Source of the DNA: Bacteroidales bacterium
GTDB taxonomy: Bacteria; Bacteroidota; Bacteroidia; Bacteroidales; JAADGE01
NCBI GenBank assembly: GCA_021108035.1
Contig: JAIORQ010000072.1
Location: forward strand, 1 to 64,000
Direction of reading: 5' to 3'
Length of the DNA: 64,000 nucleotides
Part shown: in pieces, positions 27,251 to 40,448 of the stretch
Numbering within the stretch: the first letter of the stretch is position 1
Layout: each line of letters starts with the position of its first letter
Position numbers and translations under genes: made by a program
Notes under the pieces: model-generated
Databases searched by the model: none
What the model saw: only the letters and a program-made list of their open reading frames with translations
What the model was told of the DNA's origin: nothing

Positions 27251-28771
27251 ATGACACCTAAGAAAATACTGGTTTTTGTAATATCTATATTTTTCATTCT
27301 TTTATTGATCACAATTGTTTTTCCTTCAGAAGGAATAAAAATTACTGATGAATTTACTTTAAATTTCATAACATTTGAAGAACTGATAAATCCTCCGAAA
27401 CAAGCAAAAGTTGACATTTCAGGCATACTTAATAATACAGATATTGATGAAAACCAAACCGACAGTTCTGCTTTTGAAATAGTAAAAAACAGCAAATATG
27501 ATTCGGTAATGATTGATTCTCAATACGTTTATTATGAGCCTGTTCCTATAAGAATTGATTCAGTTGTAAGGTATATTGAGTTTCCGGATAAAACCCGATC
27601 AAGTTTAAATCGTTTTTTTGAAATTCTTGCTAATATAAAAAATGAAAATAAAATAGTAAGAATTATGCATTACGGCGATTCTCAAATTGAAACAGACAGA
27701 ATAACCGATTATTTCAGATACAAATTGCAAACACAATTCGGAGGTTACGGAGCCGGCTTTGTTTCTGCCGTAAAAGCTTATGATTTTAAATCTCCGATGA
27801 TCCAAATTAACAGCGGAGATTGGAAACGACATACTGTTTACGGAAGAAGAGACACAACAATAAAGCACCGAAGATTCGGAATGTTAGGTAATTTTGCCAG
27901 ATTTTCTCCGGTAATTACAGATACTGCAGAAACATTCATCATGAATGAAGCAATTATGCCTAATAAAATCTTTAATTATGCAACTGTAACAATTAAGCAA
28001 TCTCCATATTCATTCAAACCTACAAAAAATTACAAAAGGTGTCGAATGTTCTATGGTTATAATAAAGCAGAAGTTAAAGTAAAAGTATTTTCAGATGAAG
28101 TTTTAATCAGTGAAGATGTACTTCCTGCAATTGAAGATTATACAAGTAAAACATGGACATTTGAAACTTCACCTCAAAGTTTAAGATTTGAATTTGAAGC
28201 TGAAGACAGTCCGGAAATTTATGGTTTTTCATTAGAAGCATACTCCGGAATTAATATTGATAATATTGCAATGAGAGGTTCAGGAGGGCTGTTCTTTACA
28301 AGAATGGATCTTAGTATGTTAAGTCGTTTATATTCTCAACTTAATACAAAACTTCTGATTTTACAATTCGGAGGTAATATTGTTCCGGGACAAAGAGAAA
28401 AATATGGATGGTACAGAAAAAGTTTTTCTCGCCAATTACGCACAATAAAAAAAATAGCTCCTGATATTACAATTATGGTAATCGGTCTTGCAGATATGTC
28501 AATGAAAGATAAAGATATGTATGTAACCTACCCAAACATTCCTCTTATCAGAGATGCACTGAAACAAGCAAGTTTTGATAATGATTGTGCCTATTGGGAT
28601 ATGTTTGAAGCAATGGGTGGTGAGAATTCTATGCCGAGTTGGGTATTTCACGACCCGCCTCTCGGAGAAAAAGATTTTACACATTTTACACCTAACGGAG
28701 CAAGGTATATTGCTAAAATGTTTTACAATGCTTTTATGTATGAATATAATCGGTATTTGAAGAAAAGATAA
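27251..28771 (+). CDS. SGNH/GDSL-fold protein, envelope O-acetylation locus (1)
   Basis: 506 residues. One N-terminal membrane helix (about 7-26) anchors a long extracytoplasmic region. The SGNH motifs are block I MHYGDSQIETDR (D143, S144), block III FGGN near residue 375, and block V D475-FTH478. The Ser/Asp/His set of an esterase or transacylase is therefore complete. Together with a second SGNH protein (28980) and an MBOAT acyltransferase (30697) on the same strand, this resembles systems that move acetyl groups across the inner membrane onto a polysaccharide or peptidoglycan. The acceptor is unknown. Confidence 0.82.
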   Translation: MTPKKILVFVISIFFILLLITIVFPSEGIKITDEFTLNFITFEELINPPKQAKVDISGILNNTDIDENQTDSSAFEIVKNSKYDSVMIDSQYVYYEPVPIRIDSVVRYIEFPDKTRSSLNRFFEILANIKNENKIVRIMHYGDSQIETDRITDYFRYKLQTQFGGYGAGFVSAVKAYDFKSPMIQINSGDWKRHTVYGRRDTTIKHRRFGMLGNFARFSPVITDTAETFIMNEAIMPNKIFNYATVTIKQSPYSFKPTKNYKRCRMFYGYNKAEVKVKVFSDEVLISEDVLPAIEDYTSKTWTFETSPQSLRFEFEAEDSPEIYGFSLEAYSGINIDNIAMRGSGGLFFTRMDLSMLSRLYSQLNTKLLILQFGGNIVPGQREKYGWYRKSFSRQLRTIKKIAPDITIMVIGLADMSMKDKDMYVTYPNIPLIRDALKQASFDNDCAYWDMFEAMGGENSMPSWVFHDPPLGEKDFTHFTPNGARYIAKMFYNAFMYEYNRYLKKR

Positions 28772-28864
28772 ATCAGTTTGTATTTTACAATAAATACGGC
28801 ATCTTTGCCCTGTATTTTTTAACTTTTACTATCTGTATTGCCTTGTATTTTTAAATAAAAAATA

Positions 28865-28951
28865 ATGAATAAATTTACAATCACTTTGTTTCGTCCTGTA
28901 AACACCAAAGAACCGGAATTAATAAAAGAATTGTTGGCGAAATTGAAGTAA
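28865..28951 (+). CDS. Possible 28-residue ORF (uncertain, may be a remnant)
   Basis: ATG at 28865 gives MNKFTITLFRPVNTKEPELI plus eight residues, and ends TAA at 28951, just before the second SGNH gene. The TITLFRPVN start looks like the N-terminus of a small Bacteroidota protein family, but the rest is absent, so a gene remnant is as likely as a real peptide. No motif supports function. Confidence 0.2.
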   Translation: MNKFTITLFRPVNTKEPELIKELLAKLK

Positions 28952-28979
28952 TTGCAAAATATCAGAAAGACAATCAAAA

Positions 28980-30221
28980 ATGAAAATTAAACATAATACT
29001 TTGTTGATATATATAATATTCAATATTACATTGACAATATCCGCACAAGACTACCCCTATTCCAATCAAGAATATAATTTTATCAGATACGATAAAAACA
29101 AAATAAATTTTCCCGGAGACAGTTCTCAATTTGAAAATTTATTTAATAAGTTTGATAAAGTTATAAAAACCGGAGAAGGTAAAATCAATATAATTCATAT
29201 AGGAGGATCGCATATTCAAGCAGGGGTTTATTCAGGTGTCGTTCGAAAAAAAATGCAAACATTTTTTCCCGGATTAAACGGAGGCAGGGGTTTAATATTT
29301 CCATACAGAATGTCTAAAACCAATAGCCCGAAAAATTATAAAATTACATGGACAGGCGAATGGGAAACTTGTAGAAATGTTAAGAAAACAGGTTGTGAAC
29401 TTGGTTTATTGGGTATTTCTGCAACATGTAAAGAAAAAGATGCTCAAATTGAGATAAAATTAGCAGAAAATTATGTTCGATATGATTTTAATTCTGTTAA
29501 GATATTTAATAAAATTGGTGATACATATATGAAAGTATATCCTGAAGATATAAATTGTGTATTTACTGTTGAAGAATTTCCTGAAGAAGGATATACACAA
29601 ATAATAACTGAAGATTATATTAAAGAACTGAAATTTAAATTGGTACAAACCGATACTATTCAAAAAGAATTTGTATTGTTCGGAATCAGCCTTGAAAATG
29701 ATAATCCCGGTGTTGTATATAGTGATGTAGGTATAAACGGAGCAAGTATTCCGTCCTTTCTTGCTTGCAATCTATTGGAACAACATACAGAAGTTATTAA
29801 TCCCGATCTTGTAATATTGTCTCTCGGAACAAATGATACCTACACAACTAACTTTAATCCTGACTATTACAGAAGGAACTACAAAAAACTTATTCAAACT
29901 ATTAGAAAAGCTGCACCTGAAGCAGCCATCCTCATTACTGTGCCTAACGACAGTTACTACAGAAGACGAAACCCGAACAATAATACAGCTCTCGCTGAAA
30001 AAGCCATCATTCAACTTGCCGAAGAATTATCTTGCGGTGTTTGGAATTTCTATAAAATAATGGGCGGATATAATTCATCTTATCTTTGGTTTAAAGAAAA
30101 ATTAATGCATACTGACCTTATCCATTTTTCAAAAAAAGGTTATATTATTAAAGGAGATTTGATGTTTGAAGCTATACTAAAAGCTTATGATAATCATATT
30201 GAAAAAGGAAATGAATCTTAA
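28980..30221 (+). CDS. SGNH-fold exported protein, envelope O-acetylation locus (2)
   Basis: 413 residues with a signal peptide (about 1-22, ending TISAQ). Block I reads IIHIGGSHIQAG with the putative nucleophile S77, but the usual GDS is GGS. Block III is SLGTNDTY, a strong SGNH signature, and block V is D379-LIH382. It is probably a periplasmic acetyl-esterase or transferase that works with the MBOAT protein downstream and the membrane-anchored SGNH protein upstream. It could give the locus both attachment and removal activities; which protein does which is not decidable from sequence. Confidence 0.8.
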   Translation: MKIKHNTLLIYIIFNITLTISAQDYPYSNQEYNFIRYDKNKINFPGDSSQFENLFNKFDKVIKTGEGKINIIHIGGSHIQAGVYSGVVRKKMQTFFPGLNGGRGLIFPYRMSKTNSPKNYKITWTGEWETCRNVKKTGCELGLLGISATCKEKDAQIEIKLAENYVRYDFNSVKIFNKIGDTYMKVYPEDINCVFTVEEFPEEGYTQIITEDYIKELKFKLVQTDTIQKEFVLFGISLENDNPGVVYSDVGINGASIPSFLACNLLEQHTEVINPDLVILSLGTNDTYTTNFNPDYYRRNYKKLIQTIRKAAPEAAILITVPNDSYYRRRNPNNNTALAEKAIIQLAEELSCGVWNFYKIMGGYNSSYLWFKEKLMHTDLIHFSKKGYIIKGDLMFEAILKAYDNHIEKGNES

Positions 30222-30276
30222 ACGAATTTTTACTTTATCAAAAAAAGCATTAACTTTGTTATAAATATTTGTATAA

Positions 30277-30513
30277 ATGTCAATTATTACATTAGAAATA
30301 GATAAAAAGAAGCATTTAAAATTATTTCTTAATTTTTTAAAAGGATTAAACTTTCCTGTTAAAATAATTTCATCAGATTATAAAGATGAAGATAATAATT
30401 TCAACTCAAATTTTGAAACATCTGAAATTAATCCTGATGAATTGTTTGGCATTTGGGAAGGAAAAGACATAACGCTTGAAAAAATAAGAGAAAAAGCATG
30501 GAAAAGAAATTAG
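30277..30513 (+). CDS. Antitoxin-like small protein, VapB-type partner of a broken VapC
   Basis: 78 residues. The N-terminus (SIITLEIDKKKHLKLFLNFL) looks like a beta-strand plus helix DNA-binding or dimer domain. The C-terminus (DELFGIWEGKDITLEKIREK) ends in AWKRN, a tail typical of antitoxins that pair with PIN-domain toxins in Bacteroidota. The ATG of a toxin frame (30498) overlaps its end by 16 bases, as in intact VapBC modules. That toxin is deleted internally (see 30498-30658), so this is an orphan antitoxin. The gene lies between the SGNH and MBOAT genes. A TAACTTTG promoter-like motif precedes it (30251-30258). Confidence 0.6.
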   Translation: MSIITLEIDKKKHLKLFLNFLKGLNFPVKIISSDYKDEDNNFNSNFETSEINPDELFGIWEGKDITLEKIREKAWKRN

Positions 30514-30658
30514 TGTTATAATGCAAAGGTTTTACTTAAACCACACAATGCAAATACCTGATGCGATTATTGCATCTACCTCTATAATATCAAACCTCCC
30601 ACTATTTACATATAATAAAAAAGACTTCCGATTTATTCCAAAAATTAAATTATATTAA
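30498..30658 (+). pseudogene. Internally deleted VapC-like PIN toxin remnant
   Basis: The frame from ATG 30498 reads MEKKLVL and then stops at 30519-30521, the position where VapC proteins continue with the catalytic CDTN segment. From 30521 a second frame encodes 45 residues, with HTMQIPDAIIASTSIISNLP and then LFTYNKKDFRFIPKIKLY. That is the C-terminal quarter of a PIN toxin, containing the IPDAIIA helix and the KDF strand. The two parts are in different frames, so most of the gene, including the acidic residues of the active site near the N-terminus, has been lost. A toxin function is not expected. Confidence 0.65.
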
Positions 30659-30696
30659 ATTAAGTAATATATTTTTATATATTCGCACTCGTTTTT

Positions 30697-32214
30697 ATGA
30701 ATGACTTTTTAAGAAATATATTCCTTTTTAATCAAGACGCACCGTTAATATTTACACGGTTTTATTTTTGGGCATTCTTTGCGATTGTTATGGCTTTATA
30801 TTCAGTCATACACCAAAAGAAAAAGCCCAGAAATGCATATTTATTTTTGGTAAGCCTGTTTTTTTATTACAAAACAAGCGGAATATTTTTCTTATTATTA
30901 ATATTTTCCACAATTGCAGATTTCTTTATCGGAAGAGGAATTTACAATTCAGAAATCAAATTGAAACGAAAACTTCTGGTTGCTTTGAGCGTAACTATAA
31001 ACCTCGGAGTTCTTGTCTATTATAAATATTCCGGTTTTTTTACTGAAAGCTTTAATTATTTGCTTGGTATTGAATTAGAACCTGTTGACCTTCTTGCTAA
31101 ATGGACTAATCAATTTACCGGAACTCATTTTACGATAGATAAAATTATCTTACCTGTCGGAATTTCATTCTTCACTTTTCAAACAATAAGCTATTCGGTT
31201 GATATATACAGAAAAAAATTAAAACCGGTTAACAGTATCATTGACTTTGGTTTTTATGTATCTTTTTTTCCGCAATTGGTAGCCGGTCCCATTGTCAGGG
31301 CATCAGAATTCATACCGCAATTATACAAAAAATATAATATAACAAAAGCTGAATTCGGTATAGCAATCTTTATGATTCTCAACGGGTTAATAAAAAAATT
31401 GGTTATTGCCGATTATATTGCCGTAAACTTTGTAGATCGAGTCTTTAGTAATCCTTTGACATATGGCGGACTTGAAAACTTAATGGGAATTTACGGATAT
31501 TCCATCCAAGTATATTGTGACTTTTCAGGTTACACAGATGTAGCAATCGGAGTGGCATTATTGATGGGATTCAGATTACCTGTAAACTTCAATTCACCGT
31601 ATAAAGCTTTGCATACCGGTGAATTCTGGAAACGATGGCATATTTCTCTGTCTTCGTGGTTAAGAGATTACTTGTATATTCCGCTCGGCGGTAACAGAAA
31701 AGGAAAAGTAAGAACTAACTTTAACTTAATGCTTACTATGCTGTTAGGCGGATTGTGGCACGGCGCAAGTTGGCAATTTGTTATATGGGGCGGATTAAAC
31801 GGTGTTGGTTTGATAGTATATAAATACTGGCGAAAAATCAGCCCTTTCAAGGACAGCAAAACGTGGGCAGTTAGATTTTATGCAATATTTTTAACATTTA
31901 ATTTTATTACTGTAACAAGAATTTGGTTCAGATCAGAAAGCATGCAAGCAGTAAACGGAATTATGCACCAAATATCAAATGCTTTCGATTTTTCACAGAT
32001 AGGAGAGATAATTATTGCTTATAAAAATATATTTGCATTAATGTTAATTGCATTAATTATACATTGGTTGCCCGTAAATGTTAAAAATTCATATAAACAA
32101 ATATTCATCAATTTTCCTCAATGGGCAAAAGCTGCTACTGTCATCATTGCCGTATTTGTTATTTGGCAAGCCAGAACTGCCGGTTTGCAACCGTTTATTT
32201 ATTTCCAATTTTGA
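30697..32214 (+). CDS. MBOAT-family O-acyltransferase (AlgI/PatA/DltB-like)
   Basis: 505 residues with about ten membrane helices. MBOAT signatures are present: FPQLVAGPIVRASEFIPQL, YCDFSGYTDVAIGVALLMGF, WKRWHISLSSWLRDYLYIPL-GGNRKG, and GGLWHGASWQFVIWGGLNG with the invariant histidine at 355. AlgI-type members move acetyl groups from a cytoplasmic donor across the inner membrane to an SGNH-type partner. The two SGNH genes upstream (27251, 28980) are the natural partners. The substrate could be exopolysaccharide or peptidoglycan. It is separated from them by the toxin-antitoxin remnant and has its own gap upstream. Confidence 0.92.
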   Translation: MNDFLRNIFLFNQDAPLIFTRFYFWAFFAIVMALYSVIHQKKKPRNAYLFLVSLFFYYKTSGIFFLLLIFSTIADFFIGRGIYNSEIKLKRKLLVALSVTINLGVLVYYKYSGFFTESFNYLLGIELEPVDLLAKWTNQFTGTHFTIDKIILPVGISFFTFQTISYSVDIYRKKLKPVNSIIDFGFYVSFFPQLVAGPIVRASEFIPQLYKKYNITKAEFGIAIFMILNGLIKKLVIADYIAVNFVDRVFSNPLTYGGLENLMGIYGYSIQVYCDFSGYTDVAIGVALLMGFRLPVNFNSPYKALHTGEFWKRWHISLSSWLRDYLYIPLGGNRKGKVRTNFNLMLTMLLGGLWHGASWQFVIWGGLNGVGLIVYKYWRKISPFKDSKTWAVRFYAIFLTFNFITVTRIWFRSESMQAVNGIMHQISNAFDFSQIGEIIIAYKNIFALMLIALIIHWLPVNVKNSYKQIFINFPQWAKAATVIIAVFVIWQARTAGLQPFIYFQF

Positions 32215-32215
32215 C

Positions 32216-32256
32216 TTTTGAACGTCCGCAGGACTTCAAAATGTCAGATTTTTTTT
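32216..32256 (+). terminator. Hairpin terminator after MBOAT gene
   Basis: TTTTGAA-c-GTCC, loop GCA, GGAC-TTCAAAA forms an 11-bp stem with one bulged base, starting 2 bases after the stop. A run of eight T follows seven bases further on. The GTCC-GCA-GGAC core resembles a REP unit, so it may serve both roles. Confidence 0.5.
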
Positions 32257-32326
32257 AGTGAGATTGAGGTAGATTGAACAGAGCTGATTTGTTAATAAAT
32301 AGTCAATAATAAATAATCATTTAAAT

Positions 32327-32935
32327 ATGTCATCCGAAAAAGAAAACAATTTACCCGATAAACTAATCTACACTAAAGAAGTTATAGAATTTGTAACTGT
32401 TGCTAATGAATATTGTGTGTTATTAGAAAGTTTAGAAACTTTAACCAGAGAACAATTTATTGAAGAAACATATAAGATTTTGACTTTGCTTCATCTTAAA
32501 GCATTAACCCTTCCAAAACCTAAGGATATATCAAATGTTGAAACTGAAACTTTTATGAATGAAGCTGATTGGCATTTTATTGATACCGGCATCAGTACAA
32601 AACTCGGTTCTTTGGAAACATTTAATGATTTGAGAGAGCCAATAATACCTGATAATCCTGTAAACATAAGCATTTCGGAATGCTTAACAGACACTTACCA
32701 AGATTTAAAAGATTTTACACAATTATATCAAATCGGAAATGAAGATGCTGTAACGGAAGGACTGTGGGAATGCAAAAATAACTTTGAGCAAATTTGGGGT
32801 CCGAGAATTATTATTGTTATGAAAGAGTTTCACAACCTTATCTACGGAGATAACGATCTTTCAGAAGAAGAAAAAACTTCTCAAAAATTAAATCCTAAAG
32901 GTGAGAATTGGATTGATGATATTTTTGAAAATTAA
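32327..32935 (+). CDS. DUF5063-family protein
   Basis: 202 residues, soluble and acidic, with no signal peptide. The N-terminal helix TKEVIEFVTVANEYCVLLES and the following LTREQFIEETYKILTLLHLK match DUF5063 proteins of Bacteroidota, and the C-terminus has VTEGLWECKNNFEQIWGPRI. It is predicted to be an all-helical cytoplasmic protein. The function of the family is not known. Its stop overlaps the stop of the convergent omega-amidase gene (shared TTAA at 32932-32935). Confidence 0.7.
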   Translation: MSSEKENNLPDKLIYTKEVIEFVTVANEYCVLLESLETLTREQFIEETYKILTLLHLKALTLPKPKDISNVETETFMNEADWHFIDTGISTKLGSLETFNDLREPIIPDNPVNISISECLTDTYQDLKDFTQLYQIGNEDAVTEGLWECKNNFEQIWGPRIIIVMKEFHNLIYGDNDLSEEEKTSQKLNPKGENWIDDIFEN

Positions 32936-33705
32936 CAGTTAATCATAAAGCTGTCAGCATCGTTTGAAGCCGGAAATTTCTTTCGAAATGTCAGAAGTGC
33001 ATTATAATTTAATTCAACAGTCTTAATACCTTCTTTAAAAGCTTCAAAATCACATATAACATTCCCTTTAGGATCAATTATTAAGGAATCACCTGAATGA
33101 GCAATACCGTTACCGTCATCCCCTACTCTGTTAACTGCTATCACATATGCTTGATTTTCAATTGCTCTGGCAAATAATAGTGTTTTCCATGCTTCAATTC
33201 TTGCTTCAGGCCAATTGGCAACATATATAAGAATATCATAATCATTTTTATTTCTGCTCCAAACGGGGAAACGCAGATCATAACATATAAGAGGCTTTAT
33301 TTTCCAATCTTTCAAATTTGTAATTAATTGTTTTTCTCCTTGTGCGTAATATTGATCTTCTCCGGCAAATGAAAACAAATGTCGTTTATTATAAATATCA
33401 TAAGTTCCGTCGGGTTTCATCCAAATTAAACAATTATAAAAGTTTCCTTTCACTTCTCTGATAATACTGCCGGTTATAACAGCATTCTTCATTAGGGCAT
33501 GCTCTGAAAGCCACTTAGTTTGCATATTTGCAAACTTTGAAAACTTATTGGGTTTCATTGAGAATCCGGTTGCAAACATTTCCGGTAAAACTATTAAATC
33601 AGTTTCTTCTTTTAATGATTTAATCTTTTCTGAAAAATATTTTAAATTTTCTTCAACATTCTCCCAAATCAAATTTGCTTGAATTATTGTTACTTTTAAA
33701 CTCAT
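32932..33705 (-). CDS. Omega-amidase, nitrilase superfamily (YafV/Nit2-like)
   Basis: 257 residues, the usual size. The carbon-nitrogen hydrolase triad is complete: E42 (LPEMFATGF), K107 (YNKRHLFSF) and C141 (LICYDLRFP). The GEDQYY and YVANWPEAR segments fit the omega-amidase branch, which hydrolyses alpha-ketoglutaramate or alpha-ketosuccinamate from transamination by-products (metabolite repair). It acts in the cytoplasm. Its 5' side is bordered by the CACAGA repeats that enclose the GxxExxY gene. Confidence 0.88.
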   Translation of the reverse strand: MSLKVTIIQANLIWENVEENLKYFSEKIKSLKEETDLIVLPEMFATGFSMKPNKFSKFANMQTKWLSEHALMKNAVITGSIIREVKGNFYNCLIWMKPDGTYDIYNKRHLFSFAGEDQYYAQGEKQLITNLKDWKIKPLICYDLRFPVWSRNKNDYDILIYVANWPEARIEAWKTLLFARAIENQAYVIAVNRVGDDGNGIAHSGDSLIIDPKGNVICDFEAFKEGIKTVELNYNALLTFRKKFPASNDADSFMINC

Positions 33706-33711
33706 TTACTC

Positions 33712-33784
33712 TTTTTTGCGCACAGAACTCACAGATTTTCACAGATTATTATTTTTCTGTGTTATTCTGTGGCTTCTGTGTGAT
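33712..33784. repeat. CACAGA quasi-palindromic repeat, copy 1
   Basis: A unit of about 73 bases in which CACAGA-type hexamers at roughly 10-base intervals are followed by TCTGTG-type hexamers at similar spacing, so it can fold on itself. It is nearly identical to 33800-33873. It lies directly in front of the omega-amidase start. Confidence 0.7.
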
Positions 33785-33799
33785 ATTATTCTTACATAC

Positions 33800-33873
33800 T
33801 TTTTTGCGCACAGAACTCACAGATTTGCACAGATTATTGTTTTTCTGTGTTATTCTGTGGCTTCTGTGTGATA
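33800..33873. repeat. CACAGA quasi-palindromic repeat, copy 2
   Basis: Near-identical to copy 1, with a few substitutions (CACAGATTTGCACAGATT against CACAGATTTTCACAGATT). It ends one base from the GxxExxY stop codon. Confidence 0.7.
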
Positions 33874-33874
33874 A

Positions 33875-34261
33875 CTATTTATCAATAACACCATTAATAT
33901 ATCTTTTGATTCCGTCATTGATATTATATTCATTAAAATTAATAAGTATACCAAGTTTGAAACCTGTTAAATTTACATATGTCCCTAATATTTTATAATA
34001 AACCTTTGCTATTGTTTCAACAGATTTTATTTCAATTATTACTTTATTTTCTACAATTAAATCGGCTCTGAAACCATGTTCCATTTTTATATCTTTCCAA
34101 ACAACAGGAATTGCTTTTTGTCTGTCAACTTTTAGACCCAATTGTCTTAATTCATAATACATAATTTCTTCATAAACTGACTCAAGCAAACCGGGACCTA
34201 ACTCTTTATGTATTTCATATGCTACACCTCTAATTTTAAAAGACAAATCATTTTCAGTCAT
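33875..34261 (-). CDS. GxxExxY protein, PDDEXK-nuclease-fold family
   Basis: 128 residues. The naming motif G24-xx-E27-xx-Y30 lies in ELGPGLLESVYEEIMYYEL. The PD-(D/E)XK core appears as GFRADLIVENKVIIEIKSVE, with D67, E77 and K79, so the catalytic metal-binding residues are intact. Family members have a small nuclease fold and no settled role. The gene is bracketed by two pairs of CACAGA quasi-palindromes (33712-33873 and 34290-34427). That suggests it is the cargo or agent of a repeat-bounded element, or a protein that acts on those repeats; both are inference. Confidence 0.88.
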   Translation of the reverse strand: MTENDLSFKIRGVAYEIHKELGPGLLESVYEEIMYYELRQLGLKVDRQKAIPVVWKDIKMEHGFRADLIVENKVIIEIKSVETIAKVYYKILGTYVNLTGFKLGILINFNEYNINDGIKRYINGVIDK

Positions 34262-34289
34262 AATTAATATTTTTTGTATTTACAAGCAT

Positions 34290-34344
34290 AAATCACAGGT
34301 TTTCACAAATTCTTTTCTGTGTTATTCTGTGAATTCTGTATGAT
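34290..34344. repeat. CACAGA repeat, diverged copy 3
   Basis: A shorter, degraded version (AATCACAGGTTTTCACAAAT, then CTGTGTTATTCTGTGAATTC) on the upstream side of the GxxExxY gene. Confidence 0.55.
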
Positions 34345-34362
34345 AATTATTCTTTAATAACT

Positions 34363-34427
34363 TTTGCTCACAGAACTCACAGATTTGCACAGACTTTTTC
34401 TGTGGTATTCTGTGGCTTCTGTGTGAA
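34363..34427. repeat. CACAGA repeat, copy 4
   Basis: Closely matches copies 1 and 2 (TGCTCACAGAACTCACAG, TTTGCACAGAC, CTGTGGCTTCTGTGTG) with a short deletion in the loop. It ends next to the stop codon of the acyltransferase gene. Confidence 0.65.
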
Positions 34428-34428
34428 A

Positions 34429-34980
34429 TTAAATCTTAAATTTCCCTTTATAAAGACCTTCCATACCTTTGTAATGCTCTTTTATTGCCTTAATATCCTT
34501 TTCCATATTACCTGTAATTTTAAATTCACCGATAAACCCTGCTGTTTTGGATTTAAAATCAGAAAGAGTAAGATATATTGGCACATTTGCTGCTTGAGCA
34601 ATTCTGTAAAAACCGGTTTTCCAATTCGGATTAGGAGAACGAGTCCCTTCCGGAGTTATTGCTAATATCATTTTTTCAGTTTTTTTATATTCATCAGCCA
34701 TTTGATTTACAATACCACCCGGATATTTTCTGTTAATCGGAACAGCTCCCCAAAGCCTTAATAGTACCCCCATAGGAAAAAAGAAAAATTCCTTTTTAAT
34801 CATGATCTTAGGTTTCATTCCAAATGCCCAATTATACATCTTGCCCCAAATCATATCCCAGAAACTTGTATGCGGTGCAAGAACACAAACGTACTTTGGT
34901 ACATCAGGAACTTCTCCTACTAATTTCCAACCAATTATTTTAAAAAAAGATTTTCCGATAAATTTTGATACAGCTCCCAT
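34429..34980 (-). CDS. 1-acylglycerol-3-phosphate acyltransferase-like (PlsC family)
   Basis: 183 residues from the ATG at 34980; a TTG start 15 bases upstream is possible but less likely. The acyltransferase motif HTSFWD (H37, D42) and the ITPEGTRSPNPNW motif (E111) match the PlsC family. The WGKMYNWAFG and FFFFPMGVLLRLWGAVPINR segments are those of the short Bacteroidota members, which transfer acyl chains to lysophosphatidate or a related acceptor at the inner membrane. The strain may have other PlsC genes, so the exact acceptor is not certain. Confidence 0.85.
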   Translation of the reverse strand: MGAVSKFIGKSFFKIIGWKLVGEVPDVPKYVCVLAPHTSFWDMIWGKMYNWAFGMKPKIMIKKEFFFFPMGVLLRLWGAVPINRKYPGGIVNQMADEYKKTEKMILAITPEGTRSPNPNWKTGFYRIAQAANVPIYLTLSDFKSKTAGFIGEFKITGNMEKDIKAIKEHYKGMEGLYKGKFKI

Positions 34981-35133
34981 GTTTCTATATATCAATAACT
35001 TCCTAACTCACTAAATTAGATTTTCAACATTTAAAGAATCATCATTTAATTTACAATTGATTTTCTTTAATTAGTAATTTTATTTAGTTCTGAACTTTCA
35101 GCTGACAAATATAATAGATTTATCATATTTTAG

Positions 35134-35141
35134 TATCTTTG
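35134..35141 (+). promoter_or_regulatory. -7 element (TATCTTTG) of the DUF1848 gene
   Basis: TATCTTTG fits TAnnTTTG and lies 29 bases upstream of the ATG at 35170. The -33 element is not obvious. Confidence 0.4.
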
Positions 35142-35169
35142 AATTATTCAATTAAGCTTTTAAAATAAA

Positions 35170-36069
35170 ATGCTCAATTCTCATTCTCCGATAATAATTT
35201 CAGCAAGCAGAGCAACAGACATTCCGGCTTTGTATGGTGATTGGTTTATTAACAGACTAAAAGAAGGATATGTAATAAGGCAAAATCCGTTTAACGGTAA
35301 AAAATATAAAATTTCATTTGATAAAACACAATTGATCGTTTTTTGGACTAAAAATCCGGAACCGTTTTTTGATAAATTAGAATATTTAAATAAATACTAT
35401 CCTAATTATTATTTTCAATTTACTTTAAATGACTACGGCAAGAATATTGAAACAAATCTCCCGAATTTAAATAAACGGATTGATACATTTATTGAATTAT
35501 CAGAAAAAATCGGAAAAGAAAAAGTTATATGGAGATTTGATCCTTTACTTCTTACTGATAAAATATATGTTGATGATTTAATAAATAAAATTGACGGCAC
35601 AGCCGAAAAAATACATAATTATACGAACAAATTAGTATTTAGTTTTATTAATATTGAACAATACAAGAAAGTTCAAAGGAAAATAAAAAAATCAGGGAAT
35701 AACATTTATGAATTCAATAATGATAATAAAGAAGAATTTGCAAAAAAACTTGCAAAATTAAACCGAAAATATAATTTTGAATTAGCAACTTGTGCAGAAA
35801 ACATTAACTTTACAGACTATGGTATCTGTAAAAATAAATGTATTGATGATAATCTGATTAAAAAACTTTTCTCCGAAAATGAAGCATTAATGAATATGAT
35901 TAATCAAAAAAGAAATTTAAAAGACAAGGGTCAAAGAAAAGAATGCAGATGTATCATAAGTAAAGATATTGGTCAATATAATACTTGTACACATTCTTGC
36001 GTTTATTGTTATGCCGTAAGTTCAAAAATATCAGCATTAAAAAATTATCAAAAACTTAATTTAATATGA
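35170..36069 (+). CDS. DUF1848 protein (Fe-S, radical-SAM-related)
   Basis: 299 residues. The family signature is visible: SASRATDIPALYGDWFINRL at the N-terminus, NPFNGKKYKIS, VFWTKNPEPF, YYFQFTLNDYGKNIETNLPN, VIWRFDPLL, and a cysteine-rich C-terminus (RKECRCIISKDIGQYNTCTH followed by SCVYCYA). The cysteine set suggests an iron-sulphur cluster. The related spore photoproduct lyase/radical SAM enzymes have a similar TIM-barrel, but the reaction here is unknown. The next gene starts inside its stop (ATGA overlap at 36066), so expression is coupled. Confidence 0.85.
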   Translation: MLNSHSPIIISASRATDIPALYGDWFINRLKEGYVIRQNPFNGKKYKISFDKTQLIVFWTKNPEPFFDKLEYLNKYYPNYYFQFTLNDYGKNIETNLPNLNKRIDTFIELSEKIGKEKVIWRFDPLLLTDKIYVDDLINKIDGTAEKIHNYTNKLVFSFINIEQYKKVQRKIKKSGNNIYEFNNDNKEEFAKKLAKLNRKYNFELATCAENINFTDYGICKNKCIDDNLIKKLFSENEALMNMINQKRNLKDKGQRKECRCIISKDIGQYNTCTHSCVYCYAVSSKISALKNYQKLNLI

Positions 36070-36575
36070 ATATTAAATTACTTTTACTAATTATTTCAAT
36101 TCTGTCTGTATCTGATACTGCTGTTGTACATCCTGTCCATATATCAATAATTAATTTGGAATATTCAGTAAGTAATCAAGAATTTGATTTGTTAATCAGG
36201 GTCTTTAAAGACGATTTTGAAGCAGTTATAAATAAAGATCAAAAAATTAACATTAAACTTAATGAAAATACAATTTTAAAAAATCGTAAATTTATTGATC
36301 GTTATATTCACAACAATTTTAAAATTTATTTTAACAATAAAAATGTAACAAACAATATAACTTCATATAAGGTGTTAATAAATGAAGATGAAAACACAAG
36401 CGAAATTTTTTATAAATTTAAAAGTAAAATTCCAAAAAAAATTAAAGTTATAAACACTTTGTTTAAAGGTTTTTTCAGAGACCAAAAAAATTTATTTATC
36501 TTTACTTGCAATAATACGCAAGAAGCTGTTAAATTTGACAGATCAAAAATACAAAGTGAATTTATCGTAAAATGA
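36066..36575 (+). CDS. DUF6702-family exported protein
   Basis: 169 residues with a signal peptide (about 1-19). The family start HPVHISIINLEYSVSNQEFD and RVFKDDFEAVINKDQ are recognisable DUF6702 features, followed by a beta-rich domain with an IYFNNKNVTNNI strand. Proteins of this family are periplasmic or surface-associated in Bacteroidota, function unknown. It overlaps the DUF1848 gene by 4 bases upstream and the CHU_C gene by 4 bases downstream, giving tight translational coupling of three genes. Confidence 0.72.
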   Translation: MNIKLLLLIISILSVSDTAVVHPVHISIINLEYSVSNQEFDLLIRVFKDDFEAVINKDQKINIKLNENTILKNRKFIDRYIHNNFKIYFNNKNVTNNITSYKVLINEDENTSEIFYKFKSKIPKKIKVINTLFKGFFRDQKNLFIFTCNNTQEAVKFDRSKIQSEFIVK

Positions 36576-39190
36576 AAAACTTAATCATTATAATATTTTC
36601 TTTTTTATCTCTGCAAGTATTTGCTACTCATAACAGAGCAGGTGAAATTACTTATGAATACATTTCGGGTAATACATACAGAATTACTTTGATTACTTAT
36701 ACATATACTCCCAGTGCAGCAAATGAAACTCGAGATTATCTAACGATGATATGGGGTGATGATACCCAATCTGAAATTCAAAGGATAAGTATTGAATATT
36801 TACCTGATGAAATTCAAAAAAACACATACATCGGAACACACACTTTTCCCGGAACAGGAGTTTATCAAATGGTAATGTCAGACCCCAACAGAAATGAAGG
36901 TATTGTTAATATTCCAGAATCTGTAACAGTAGTTTTTACTATTAAAACAACACTTAAAATAGACCCTGAGATAGGCCCTAATAATACTCCTGTAATGCTA
37001 AATCCTCCTGTTGACAAAGCAGCTCTAAATCAAAGGTTTATTCACAACCCAAATGCATTTGACCCTGACGGAGACAGTATTTCATACAAGTTAACAGTTT
37101 GTCTGGGAAATAACGGACTTCCCATACCCGGTTATACTTTTCCGGAAGCCGATAATGAGTTATATGTTGATGAAATAACAGGTGACTTTGTTTGGGATGC
37201 ACCTGTTCAAATAGGAGAATACAATGTAGCAATGGAAATTGAAGAATGGCGTAACGGTATTAAAATCGGCAGTATTATAAGAGATATGCAAATTGAAGTT
37301 GAAGAAACTGATAATAATCCTCCAATTATTGCAAACTTACCTGATTATTGTATTACTGCAGGAGAATTCTTAACTTTCGATGTAACAGCAACTGATCCTG
37401 ACGGTGATAATATTACATTAACTGCTTCAGGCGGTCCTTTTGAATTTGACAACAACCCTGCACAATTTCCCGAAGTAATCGGATCCTCTCCGGTAACCGG
37501 TACTTTTGAATGGAATACACTCTGCGAACATATTCGTCAACAACCTTATAATGTATTATTCCGAGCAGAAGACGATAATCCGGAAGTCGGCCTGACTGAT
37601 TATGAAAATGTAATGATAGAAGTTGTAGCTCCTGCGCCTGAAAATCTTAATGTTAATCCAACTTCTAATTCGGTTATACTAAATTGGGATAATTATCAAT
37701 GTCAAAATGCTGAAGGATTCAAAATATACAGGAGAAACGGCTCTTTCCCGTACACACCCGGTGATTGTGAGACCGGTATTCCGGCAGGTTCCGGATATAT
37801 ACTTGCAGGTACAGTCAATAATCCGGCAGATGTAAGTTTTACTGATAATAATAACGATATCGGATTAGCACAAGGTTACGAATATTGTTATAGAATTATT
37901 GCATATTTTTTAGATAATGCTGAAAGCTATGTATCAAATGAAGCCTGTACCGAACTTATAAAAGCATCACCTGTTATAACAGAGACTTCCGTAAATTATA
38001 CAGATTTGCAAAACGGCAGTATTCATCTAAGATGGATGCAACCAACAGAATTTGATACCGGAATATATCCCGGACCATATAAATATGTTGTTGAATCTAA
38101 CGAAGGACAGGTTTGGGAAAACTTCTCAAATCCGATTGACATCTTCGGAATAACAGATACAACATATACTGACACATTAATTAACACACAAGACTCATCT
38201 TGGTCTTATAAAGTTACTTTATTCAGCCAAAACGGAAGCAATTGGGATCAAGTAGGAAGCCCTTCACACAGTTCATCTGTTTTTATTGAAGGAATTCCCG
38301 GAGACAGAAAAATGACTGTTATAATAAACGATAATACACCATGGACTAACAAGCAATACGTTATTTACAGAAAAAAATCTGATGAAAATTGCAATTCGAA
38401 TACATTATCTTATGACTCAATAACAACAACTTCATCTTTAGAATATACTGATCGTAATTTGAAAAATGATACAAGTTATTGGTATGTAGTAAAAAGCATA
38501 GGTGAATATGATTTAGATTTTATTCCGAAACCTTTAATAAATTTCTCTCAAGAAGCTTGTCTTACTCCACAGGACACAACACCTCCTTGTCCGGTAAATT
38601 TAACACTTGAAACAGACTGTGATCTTTTTCAAAATTATCTGTATTGGACAATCAACCTTTCATGTGCCCCTGATATTGATAACTTCTTAATATTTTATTC
38701 CGACAGCTATACCGGAGAATTTCAACTTATAGATACTATTTATGATAATGAAGTAAGAGCATACATTCACGCTCCGACTGAATCACTTGGTGCATGCTAC
38801 GTAGTTTCAGTACAGGATTCAGCAGGAAATTATATTAGTCCTGATCAATTAACAAGAGTTTGTATTGACGAATGTTACTATTATGAATTGCCTAATGTAT
38901 TTACGCCAAACGGCGACGGCATTAACGACCTTTTTATACCATACCCTTATAAATTTGTTGAAAAAATTGATATGACTATCTATAACAGATGGGGGAATCC
39001 TGTTTTTGAAACCGAAGATCCGGATATTAATTGGGGCGGAATTGATTTTGAAAGCAATAAGCCGGTATCTGACGGAGTATATTATTATGTATGTGATGTA
39101 TATGAAAGAAGGTTATCCGGAATAGAAGTGAGAAATATTGCGGGTTTTATAAGAATTTTTGCAAATACCGGAAACACCGGAAAAGAATAA
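36572..39190 (+). CDS. Large T9SS-secreted protein with CHU_C (type B) sorting domain
   Basis: 872 residues with a signal peptide (about 1-18, ending VFATH). The N-terminal HNRAGEITYEYISGNTYRIT module is a common start of Bacteroidota surface proteins. Cadherin/PKD-like repeats follow (NPNAFDPDGDSISYKL; DVTATDPDGDNITLTA), then fibronectin type III-like units with cysteine-containing loops (about 345-690). The C-terminal ~90 residues are the gliding-motility-associated CHU_C domain: LPNVFTPNGDGINDLFIPYP, IYNRWGNPVFET and VSDGVYYYVCDVYE. It should be exported by T9SS and act in adhesion or matrix. It overlaps the DUF6702 gene by 4 bases. Confidence 0.9.
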   Translation: MKNLIIIIFSFLSLQVFATHNRAGEITYEYISGNTYRITLITYTYTPSAANETRDYLTMIWGDDTQSEIQRISIEYLPDEIQKNTYIGTHTFPGTGVYQMVMSDPNRNEGIVNIPESVTVVFTIKTTLKIDPEIGPNNTPVMLNPPVDKAALNQRFIHNPNAFDPDGDSISYKLTVCLGNNGLPIPGYTFPEADNELYVDEITGDFVWDAPVQIGEYNVAMEIEEWRNGIKIGSIIRDMQIEVEETDNNPPIIANLPDYCITAGEFLTFDVTATDPDGDNITLTASGGPFEFDNNPAQFPEVIGSSPVTGTFEWNTLCEHIRQQPYNVLFRAEDDNPEVGLTDYENVMIEVVAPAPENLNVNPTSNSVILNWDNYQCQNAEGFKIYRRNGSFPYTPGDCETGIPAGSGYILAGTVNNPADVSFTDNNNDIGLAQGYEYCYRIIAYFLDNAESYVSNEACTELIKASPVITETSVNYTDLQNGSIHLRWMQPTEFDTGIYPGPYKYVVESNEGQVWENFSNPIDIFGITDTTYTDTLINTQDSSWSYKVTLFSQNGSNWDQVGSPSHSSSVFIEGIPGDRKMTVIINDNTPWTNKQYVIYRKKSDENCNSNTLSYDSITTTSSLEYTDRNLKNDTSYWYVVKSIGEYDLDFIPKPLINFSQEACLTPQDTTPPCPVNLTLETDCDLFQNYLYWTINLSCAPDIDNFLIFYSDSYTGEFQLIDTIYDNEVRAYIHAPTESLGACYVVSVQDSAGNYISPDQLTRVCIDECYYYELPNVFTPNGDGINDLFIPYPYKFVEKIDMTIYNRWGNPVFETEDPDINWGGIDFESNKPVSDGVYYYVCDVYERRLSGIEVRNIAGFIRIFANTGNTGKE

Positions 39191-39248
39191 TTACAGCTTA
39201 TTCAGATTTGTAATCCGAATGTAATAATTAAATAACATAAAAAAACAT

Positions 39249-40448
39249 ATGAAAATAACTATCATACTGTTATTCAGTTTTTTATATATAAACACAATGT
39301 CCCAAGTATCGGCAGATGATTTATATATGAACGCAATTGTTTTGTCAAAAAACAGTGATAATGAAAAAGCAATTGAAGCATTGAACAAAGCAAAAATATC
39401 TGATAATTCTAATGAGAAGATATATTTCTTACTGGGAGAATGTTATTATAATAATTTTGAATATAAAACAGCAGCAGATAATTTTAACAAATCCTATAAA
39501 TTAAAAAATAATAATGCATTATATAAAATTGCTGAATGTTATTCTCAATTAGATAAACCATATAAATCTGTTGAATATTTAAAATTATATTTGGAGACAA
39601 AAGATAAACTGTTAAAATCTGAAATCAGATCAAACAAAGCTTTTAGGAATATTGAAGATTCAAAAGCTTGGATAAATTTATGGAAAGAAAAGCATTACAA
39701 TAATTATGAAAAAAAGTTAGATGATGCAAAATATCTCATAAGTAAAGAAGATTATGCTAATGCTTTCAATATTCTTGATAAATTATTGATTAAAAACAAT
39801 AAAAGATACAGAGCGCTCGAAATGAGAGGAGATATTTTAAATCATACCTCCGATTATAAAAATGCCGCTAAAGATTACCTTGCTGCTTCCGGTATTAAGA
39901 AAAAAAATATAAGATACAAAATTAAAGCAGCTGATGCTTGGTTCAAAGCCGAAAAATATAAAAGGTCTTTTGAACTTTACAAGCTGATTATTGAAGAAAA
40001 CCCTTTTGAAATTGATATATTAATTAATAAAGCAAGAACAGAACTGTTTTTATCCGAAAATTCCAATGCCCAAAATACAATAACAAGTTATTTAAAACAC
40101 TTTCCCGAAGATCCTACAGCATTAAATATATCCGGAATGATTTTTTATTCTGAAAAAGACTATATAAATGCTTTAATCAAATTTAATCTTTGTCTTAAAA
40201 TTGATCAATCAAAACCGGAATATTTTATAAACAGAGGTGATACATATTCTGCTGTTAAAATGTTTGAAAATGCCGTATATGATTATTCCATGGCATTAGA
40301 TCTCAATCCTAAACAAGCTGAAGTATATTATAAAAGAGGAATTACAAATTTGAATATCAATAAAAATGAATCATGCAACGATTTTAAAGAAGCATTGAGA
40401 ATGAATTATCATAAAGCAAATGATTATATTGTAAGGCATTGCAAATAA
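39249..40448 (+). CDS. Exported tetratricopeptide-repeat protein
   Basis: 399 residues with a signal peptide (about 1-19, ending TMSQV). The rest consists of TPR-like helical pairs; the clearest are KIYFLLGECYYNNFEYKTAA, ALYKIAECYSQLDKPYKSVE, and in the C-terminal part YFINRGDTYSAVKMFENAVY and AEVYYKRGITNLNINKNESC. It is probably periplasmic, serving as a scaffold for protein-protein contacts. It starts 58 bases after the CHU_C gene and may belong to the same transcript, so a role in surface-protein handling is possible (inference). Confidence 0.85.
   Translation: MKITIILLFSFLYINTMSQVSADDLYMNAIVLSKNSDNEKAIEALNKAKISDNSNEKIYFLLGECYYNNFEYKTAADNFNKSYKLKNNNALYKIAECYSQLDKPYKSVEYLKLYLETKDKLLKSEIRSNKAFRNIEDSKAWINLWKEKHYNNYEKKLDDAKYLISKEDYANAFNILDKLLIKNNKRYRALEMRGDILNHTSDYKNAAKDYLAASGIKKKNIRYKIKAADAWFKAEKYKRSFELYKLIIEENPFEIDILINKARTELFLSENSNAQNTITSYLKHFPEDPTALNISGMIFYSEKDYINALIKFNLCLKIDQSKPEYFINRGDTYSAVKMFENAVYDYSMALDLNPKQAEVYYKRGITNLNINKNESCNDFKEALRMNYHKANDYIVRHCK

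Follow-up and report, generated by a model that had tools for sequence, protein, structure and literature searches.

The stretch of DNA analysed here (the window, 64,000 nucleotides) contains a small gene of the GxxExxY family that is enclosed by repeats and has genes for an acyltransferase and a carbon-nitrogen hydrolase as its neighbours (Table 1). All three genes are on the minus strand, and the block at 33706-34427 fills almost exactly the space from the stop codon of the acyltransferase gene (34429) to the start codon of the hydrolase gene (33705). Four repeat units surround the GxxExxY gene, two per side, and units 1 and 2 match each other over 75 nt. The coordinates and this match confirm an earlier note on this DNA, which had described a near-identical pair of units on one side and two more, one of them diverged, on the other.

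Table 1. Features of the repeat-enclosed block and its neighbours
Feature	Position	Strand	Remarks
Whole element, 722 bp	33706..34427		Block missing from close relative G424 (L358)
Quasi-palindromic unit 1	33711..33785		Three CACAGA, loop, three TCTGTG; fold z -7.3
Quasi-palindromic unit 2	33799..33873		97% identity to unit 1; fold z -6.0
GxxExxY gene (TIGR04256, PF13366 PDDEXK_3), 128 aa	33875..34261	-	D67/E77/K79 kept; H88Y, Q91I
Diverged unit 3	34284..34350 (about)		86% and 67% to reference copy; fold no better than shuffles
Quasi-palindromic unit 4	34355..34427 (about)		Fold of 34355-34428 z -4.9
Carbon-nitrogen hydrolase gene (PF00795)	32932..33705	-	Boundary gene outside element; start codon abuts element
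Acyltransferase gene (PF01553)	34429..34995	-	Boundary gene outside element; stop codon abuts element

The words CACAGA and TCTGTG occur 20 times in the block, as against 12 times in the remaining 63 kb of the window. Units 1, 2 and 4 each have three copies of CACAGA (at 33721/33730/33740, 33809/33818/33828 and 34369/34378/34388) and three of TCTGTG (at 33756/33766/33775, 33844/33854/33863 and 34399/34409/34418), in steps of 9 and 10 nt (mean 9.5), while the diverged unit 3 retains two exact TCTGTG words (34316/34326). The earlier description of the spacing as about one DNA turn is therefore fair, although the steps of 9-10 nt do not amount to one exact turn. When units 1, 2 and 4 were folded as single-stranded DNA, none of 200 dinucleotide shuffles folded as well; the fold of unit 3 was unremarkable (z -1.2, with 27 of 200 shuffles as good). 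An Rfam search of 33000-35200 gave no match to rRNA, the element being situated between two protein genes, and no Rfam family reached its gathering score here, the only matches being miRNA models that scored far below it. Gene calling in the block found PDDEXK_3 alone, with no DDE or other known transposase and no S23 four-helix-bundle ORF.

The GxxExxY protein matches TIGR04256 with 133.4 bits (cut-off 35) and PF13366 with 126.7 bits (cut-off 22), library entries whose names carry no function. The active-site set of the family is E27, D67, E77xK79 and Q91xxxY95, an order that we take to be that of RecB-type nucleases, with QxxxY (Q91, Y95) presumably the RecB-type motif. In the window copy this set is incomplete, and two near-invariant family residues are substituted, H88 and Q91; the membership in the profile stands. 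The PD-(D/E)XK site that had been read from the window sequence is thus retained in D67, E77 and K79, but the active site is not retained as a whole. Orthologues at the same site in other genomes (L364, L365) have both the Q and the H. The family is under strong purifying selection: dN/dS is 0.025-0.080 in nine of ten close GxxExxY pairs, the tenth yielding no usable value. It is 0.056 between L364 and L365, and 0.11-0.12 between the window gene and either of these. Because its catalytic set is incomplete, the window copy is probably losing its function and decaying.

An AlphaFold (AF2) model of the window protein has a mean pLDDT of 94. Foldseek with this model found no match at E <= 0.001 (best 0.0021). 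In VIA-align, the best match is SSO0001 (Z 9.8), which we take to be a Cas4 protein, followed by a Spirosoma restriction-like fold (Z 9.0), and, with scores of 6-7, by Hjc and exonucleases; the range Z 6-10 is crowded with nuclease chains, and values under 8 can arise by chance, so these scores were used for the fold only. Searches with the sequence gave no match in the PDB and a best E of 0.073 in PHROGs. The modelled structure is consistent with a PD-(D/E)XK fold of the RecB/Cas4-like type.

We compared the window site with the corresponding site in 13 congeners and read nine of these; of the rest, two had a match to a single side of the site and two had none. G424 matches the window up to 33705 and again from 34428, with flanks that are 94% and 96% identical, and holds about 60 nt in place of the element (L358). 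These carry an unrelated small palindrome, and the site is therefore not a clean pre-insertion site. Among the eight further congeners, two have 10-15 nt at the site, two have 34 and one has 55; one (L363) has word-bearing arms of 169 nt that enclose no ORF; and in two the gene is present, accompanied by 2+3 and 3+4 units (counted by eye, degenerate units included). The empty sites could have arisen by recombination between strains instead of transposition. The earlier note had suggested looking for solitary repeats as marks of excision, and counterparts of these were indeed found in the ORF-less arms at the window site (L363), at a second site described below (L273) and in at least 21 further places. 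Small palindromes of other kinds are present at both sites where they have been vacated (L358 in G424 at the window site; L235 and L241 at the second site), and intergenic sites thus seem to exchange different palindromic elements.

To compare the arms of other GxxExxY genes, whose flanks were first read by eye, we scored the degenerate word CRCNRAK, counting as a pair two words with 1-5 bases between them. Genes shorter than 80% of the model (e.g., the broken gene of L026) and loci where a flank fell short of 150 nt were dropped, reducing 94 genes to 93 in a survey of the window's phylum and 83 to 77 in a multi-phylum set. The phylum survey consists of the two other GxxExxY genes of the window's own genome and of loci taken nearly in score order, and so is not a random draw; the window gene and a few loci at contig ends are excluded. 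The multi-phylum set comprises the best 80 of 578 relatives matched by one peptide pattern. At least one word pair lies within 400 bp of 88 of the 93 genes in the phylum survey (on both sides in 66 and inverted in 62) and of 68 of the 77 genes in the multi-phylum set (both sides 43, inverted 40). Near the genes the density of pairs is 5.6 per kb (phylum) and 5.0 per kb (multi-phylum), versus 0.32 and 0.29 beyond 800 bp, i.e., 17 times lower, and shuffled flanks have 0.009-0.016 pairs per flank. The earlier proposal of a repeat-bounded element would have been refuted if other GxxExxY genes had no such repeats and if the repeats were equally frequent elsewhere; neither these counts nor the genome-wide ones given below refuted it. 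The commonest words are CACAGAG, CGCAAAG, CGCAGAG, CACAAAG and CACGGAG, and in most cases 2 or 3 bases separate neighbouring words. Among the named loci, 56 are of known phylum and have at least three phased words; these span 12 phyla, one of the records being archaeal. A lag analysis that is blind to the words has its peak at 9-10; in a test on this basis, which is a modest one, 39% of 346 GxxExxY arms beat all 10 of their shuffles, compared with 10% of 346 controls. Tandem pairs of near-identical GxxExxY genes were also seen (L093 and L074, 97% and 99% identical).

We considered viruses and plasmids as carriers of the gene and rejected them. A pattern-limited scan of 2.9 million viral contigs gave 4 GxxExxY loci, with word pairs at 2 of 3 scorable genes; the gene occurs in 8 of 72,556 plasmid records, and 50,697 phage records gave no match. 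One record filed as a Bacteroides finegoldii plasmid (L374, NZ_OY725952.1) has radA beside a GxxExxY gene with clear arms, and may be a piece of a chromosome.

GxxExxY genes occur in 152 of the 296 sampled genomes of the phylum (149 of them above the family cut-off), with up to 12 copies. A stricter word pair was found in 96 of these 152 genomes versus 22 of the 144 without the gene, one of which has 15 matches. Gene-bearing genomes account for 737 of the 781 matches, and the reversed pattern gave 27; these genome-wide counts include the arms at the genes themselves, and the association takes no account of relatedness. Within family f6 alone, a count by hand gave the pattern in 15 of 22 genomes with the gene and in 2 of 7 that lack it.

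The window's own genome has three GxxExxY genes and at least 21 further repeat-like places (40 of 178 candidates were scored), none of them on the contigs of the two other genes. Two of these dispersed hairpins were folded, with z -10.7 (L003) and z -6.4 (L007). Several lie within larger composite repeats, of which at least three kinds could be distinguished by eye; in L325 and L331, the hairpin is at the centre of a larger repeat with outer inverted ends of its own (gaattaggc / gcctaattc). We checked four dispersed places in G424. One is common to both genomes over its whole length; of another, 317 of 449 nt are shared, and the hairpin is among them. A third has no match there, and for L003 the flanks match and the hairpin block is swapped for other sequence.

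The words differ between elements in a way that follows the protein. At the second site, the 36 proteins of at least 95 aa form two groups (G1 and G2) that are 37% identical. The 22 proteins of G1 (20 distinct loci) are accompanied by 1-7 CRCNRAGR words and 0-1 CACRRATT words, and the 14 proteins of G2 by 0-1 and 3-9, respectively. Mapped onto the protein tree (156 loci), base 7 of the word needs 7 changes versus a shuffled mean of 26.1 (lowest 22), and still 7 versus 13.5 (lowest 11) when the rows of the second site are left out. Between genomes of the phylum, the similarity of word profiles rises from 0.04 at 30-40% protein identity to 0.76 at 80% or more, the top identity bins containing syntenic copies. 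Different GxxExxY genes of one genome are no more alike in their words (cosine 0.18, 22 pairs) than genes of different genomes (0.21), while the left and right arms of one element have a cosine of 0.69 (n=60). In G236, four of 11 GxxExxY genes can be compared, and these have four word sets. The words are private to the individual element, and not to the genome. Because they follow the protein instead of the host genome, they lend indirect support to the idea that the GxxExxY protein recognises its words.

A finer word code across phyla was looked for and rejected, since the word profile does not vary with protein identity (Mantel r 0.002, p 0.46). A mutual-information scan pointed to candidate specificity residues (7 with base 5, 113 with base 7, and 122/123 with base 2). 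However, with independent pairs chosen in a tree-aware manner these were not significant (for residue 7, median p 0.125 and 0.0625, among the results listed), and we rejected them as well.

The two arms of a locus are also related to each other. One flank aligns to the reverse complement of the other with a score of at least 30 at 73% of loci, versus 18% for flanks of other loci and 3.6% for shuffled flanks (n=169). Own arms are predicted to pair at -18.6 kcal/mol versus -11.6 (sd 0.4) for permuted arms (n=115), a value that 0 of 100 permutations reached. For the second site the values are -27.9 versus -22.5 (sd 1.3) for G2, with 0 of 200 as low, and -17.2 versus -14.6 (sd 0.8) for G1, a value equalled by at least one of 200. 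Spacer columns in the aligned stretch are 75% alike in own arms versus 77-80% in permuted ones, and the own alignments are longer. This pairing fits either a maintained hairpin or a recent inverted duplication.

The second site, beside a gene that is presumably map, was searched for in 121 genomes of one genus. We took the best matches, 40 loci chosen by hand so that gaps of small and large size were represented, and seven earlier loci (L174 being from another collection); after L238 and L243, which lack a right flank, and the duplicates L220 and L225 had been dropped, 72 rows remained. The forms seen range from seamless empty sites and short gaps, through truncated genes and arms that have no ORF, to full elements. 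They were sorted into five states (empty 25, G1 21, G2 15, remnant 8 and other 3), with L229, L262 and the states "remnant" and "other" assigned by eye. On a quick tree of the flanks (667 columns), the five states need 38 changes, versus a mean of 39.0 when shuffled (as low in 82 of 200). The starred branches alone force 9 changes for the empty state, 11 for G1 and 10 for G2. Taken alone, the empty sites show slight clustering, at 18 changes versus 21.0 when shuffled (as low in 44 of 500). The scatter over the flank tree shows that elements at the second site were gained, lost or replaced repeatedly, through either transposition or strain-to-strain recombination. Neither a target-site duplication nor an excision product is visible by eye at this site or at the window site, and the sites compared have diverged.

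Three further observations were made at the second site, the first two by eye. L267 is a mosaic in which a G2 left arm is followed by a C-terminal remnant and the right arm of a G1 element. In L261 and L262, the G2 right arm passes without a gap into the early codons of the gene that follows, whose start is apparently a GTG of the arm. An unrelated insert of about 800 bp is present in L264 and L279.

The plan of an enclosed gene seems, from sequence comparison, to recur with other words and another period in the four-helix-bundle family TIGR02436, which is present in 114 of 148 genomes and has 14 genes in the window's own genome. Word pairs of the GxxExxY type occur at 1 of 30 TIGR02436 loci (L186-L215), and inverted arms at 22 of 30, versus 1 of 30 when shuffled. 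The arms have excess identity at lags 7, 14 and 21, and 44% of 59 beat all 10 shuffles. In L066 (3463-4091), about 620 bp that are absent from the related site L026 hold a four-helix-bundle-like ORF (by eye) next to a GxxExxY arm.

It is useful to compare the element with known systems. In REPtron or REPIN-RAYT systems, palindromic repeats are reported to flank a protein gene and also to be dispersed between genes, to form single-strand hairpins and to co-evolve with their protein (PMC3116915, PMC8266576). The similarities are one gene flanked by palindromic repeats, repeats that can fold into hairpins as single strands, dispersed related hairpins (at least 21 in the window's own genome) and co-inheritance of repeats and protein. 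A further mark of the REPtron group is a conserved tetranucleotide tag (GTAG/CGTC) next to the palindrome. However, RAYT is an HUH (Y1) transposase, whereas the protein here has a predicted PD-(D/E)XK fold (in Pfam, PDDEXK_3 only); moreover, the arms here consist of several phased 7-base words, and several unlike sets of gene and words occur per genome. The intervening sequences of 23S rRNA are reported to have a small S23 four-helix-bundle ORF in terminal inverted repeats and to span about 430 bp, and are called selfish (PMC4990558). The elements described here resemble that account in having a small ORF in terminal inverted repeats (at about 500-720 bp), but they are outside rRNA, encode an unrelated protein and have words phased at 9-10 bases.

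Other comparisons concern the enzyme. The GxxExxY family has the motif order E-D-ExK-QxxxY in common with Cas4, lambda exonuclease and Hjc. The likeness of the window protein to Cas4 (SSO0001), lambda exonuclease and the Hjc resolvase is at the level of the fold, the PDB search having found no sequence match. Free-standing homing endonucleases are nuclease ORFs within their own recognition sequence, and have empty alleles. The present element is similar in having a nuclease ORF in what is possibly its own recognition sequence, and empty alleles, but differs in its many words and many sites per genome. We found no paper on flanking repeats at GxxExxY genes among open-licence PMC papers, the scope of the literature search; three of these papers mention the family only in passing. 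The element would work like REPIN/RAYT with an unrelated enzyme, and it lacks the enzyme and the location that define REPIN/RAYT and the rRNA intervening sequences.

The explanation that we prefer, with a probability of roughly 0.6, is a minimal chromosomal mobile element in which inverted word arrays enclose a RecB/Cas4-like PD-(D/E)XK nuclease that reads its own arms. Comparison of loci establishes the plan at most members examined in many phyla, the presence or absence of the element as a block, ORF-less and truncated derivatives, a varying number of units, and words that are linked to the subfamily. As to mechanism, the nuclease would bind its own words, either as duplex or as the hairpin or cruciform that the arms can form, and would cut or resect there, so that the element and the ORF-less hairpins could be copied into intergenic sites or disappear from them, with host recombination doing the repair. 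We more tentatively propose, as a conjecture that could well fail, that this is an unrecognised and widespread class of elements whose sole enzyme is a RecB/Cas4-like nuclease of 125 residues, with private 7-base words every 9-10 bases; a genome would hold several orthogonal sets of gene and words, which would take each other's place at the same sites, and TIGR02436 would have the same plan with a 7-base period. To our knowledge, a PD-(D/E)XK nuclease fold has not been the sole enzyme of a transposing element.

Several observations speak against a mobile element: neither a target-site duplication nor an excision product was seen, 22 of 144 genomes in which no gene was found have the word pair, the fine word profile is independent of protein identity across phyla, the candidate specificity residues were not significant, own-arm pairing in G1 was equalled by permutation, Foldseek gave no match at E <= 0.001, and the window protein lacks H88 and Q91. 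In addition, synteny across genera, together with low dN/dS, is seen for many copies, as expected of a useful host gene. GxxExxY might be a structure-specific nuclease like Hjc or lambda exonuclease, the arms being regulatory or genome-maintenance sites and absence reflecting gene loss and allelic replacement. The dN/dS range of 0.025-0.080, the long synteny in one bacterial family and a fold within the range of Hjc and exonucleases agree with this. However, two subfamilies with different words alternate at one site in a pattern nearly free of phylogenetic signal, genes found together in a genome use words that are unrelated, and at the window site the number of units varies and ORF-less arms occur; we therefore consider a host gene of this kind unlikely. 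It is also rather unlikely that GxxExxY is cargo, and that the arrays are non-autonomous elements moved by another enzyme, e.g., a RAYT-type Y1/HUH transposase. The window's own genome does have 10 Y1_Tnp matches, its repeat places outnumber its GxxExxY genes (at least 21 versus 3), and several of these places, as seen by eye, are inside larger composite repeats, one kind of which has outer inverted ends of its own. Nevertheless, word pairs were found at 0 of 16 flanks (500 bp) of eight Y1 loci, the words follow the GxxExxY subfamily, and genomes that lack the gene seldom have word pairs.

We assign still lower probability to an action at the RNA level, in which the arms would form a hairpin in the transcript that the cell either tolerates or processes, as in the 23S rRNA intervening sequences, and the protein would act on RNA or be irrelevant. 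Paired with each other, the arms can form a stem that encloses the ORF, and the four-helix-bundle family reported from rRNA intervening sequences (PMC4990558) also has inverted word arms. Yet tandem hairpins and ORF-less intergenic hairpins have no obvious role in RNA, the fold is that of DNA nucleases, and no Rfam family reached its gathering score. Very improbable, in our estimation, is a defence-like or addiction module kept by anti-phage activity or by killing after its loss. The sporadic distribution and the nuclease fold fit such a module, but the only match in PADLOC is to a model for type IIG restriction, at 12.2 bits and E 0.0074, and no defence gene was recognised by eye among the ORFs at 28000-40000. 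The earlier note had allowed for either a selfish or a defence-like element bounded by repeats: of the latter we see no sign, while the arms at other genes and the gene-linked word pairs support the former.

GxxExxY genes are present in about half of the sampled genomes of the phylum, and have had no known function. If the mobile-element explanation is true, these genes and the hairpins around them would be one class of mobile DNA driven by a nuclease fold; the many unlike pairs of nuclease and words that exist in nature would then allow the recognition code to be tested directly.
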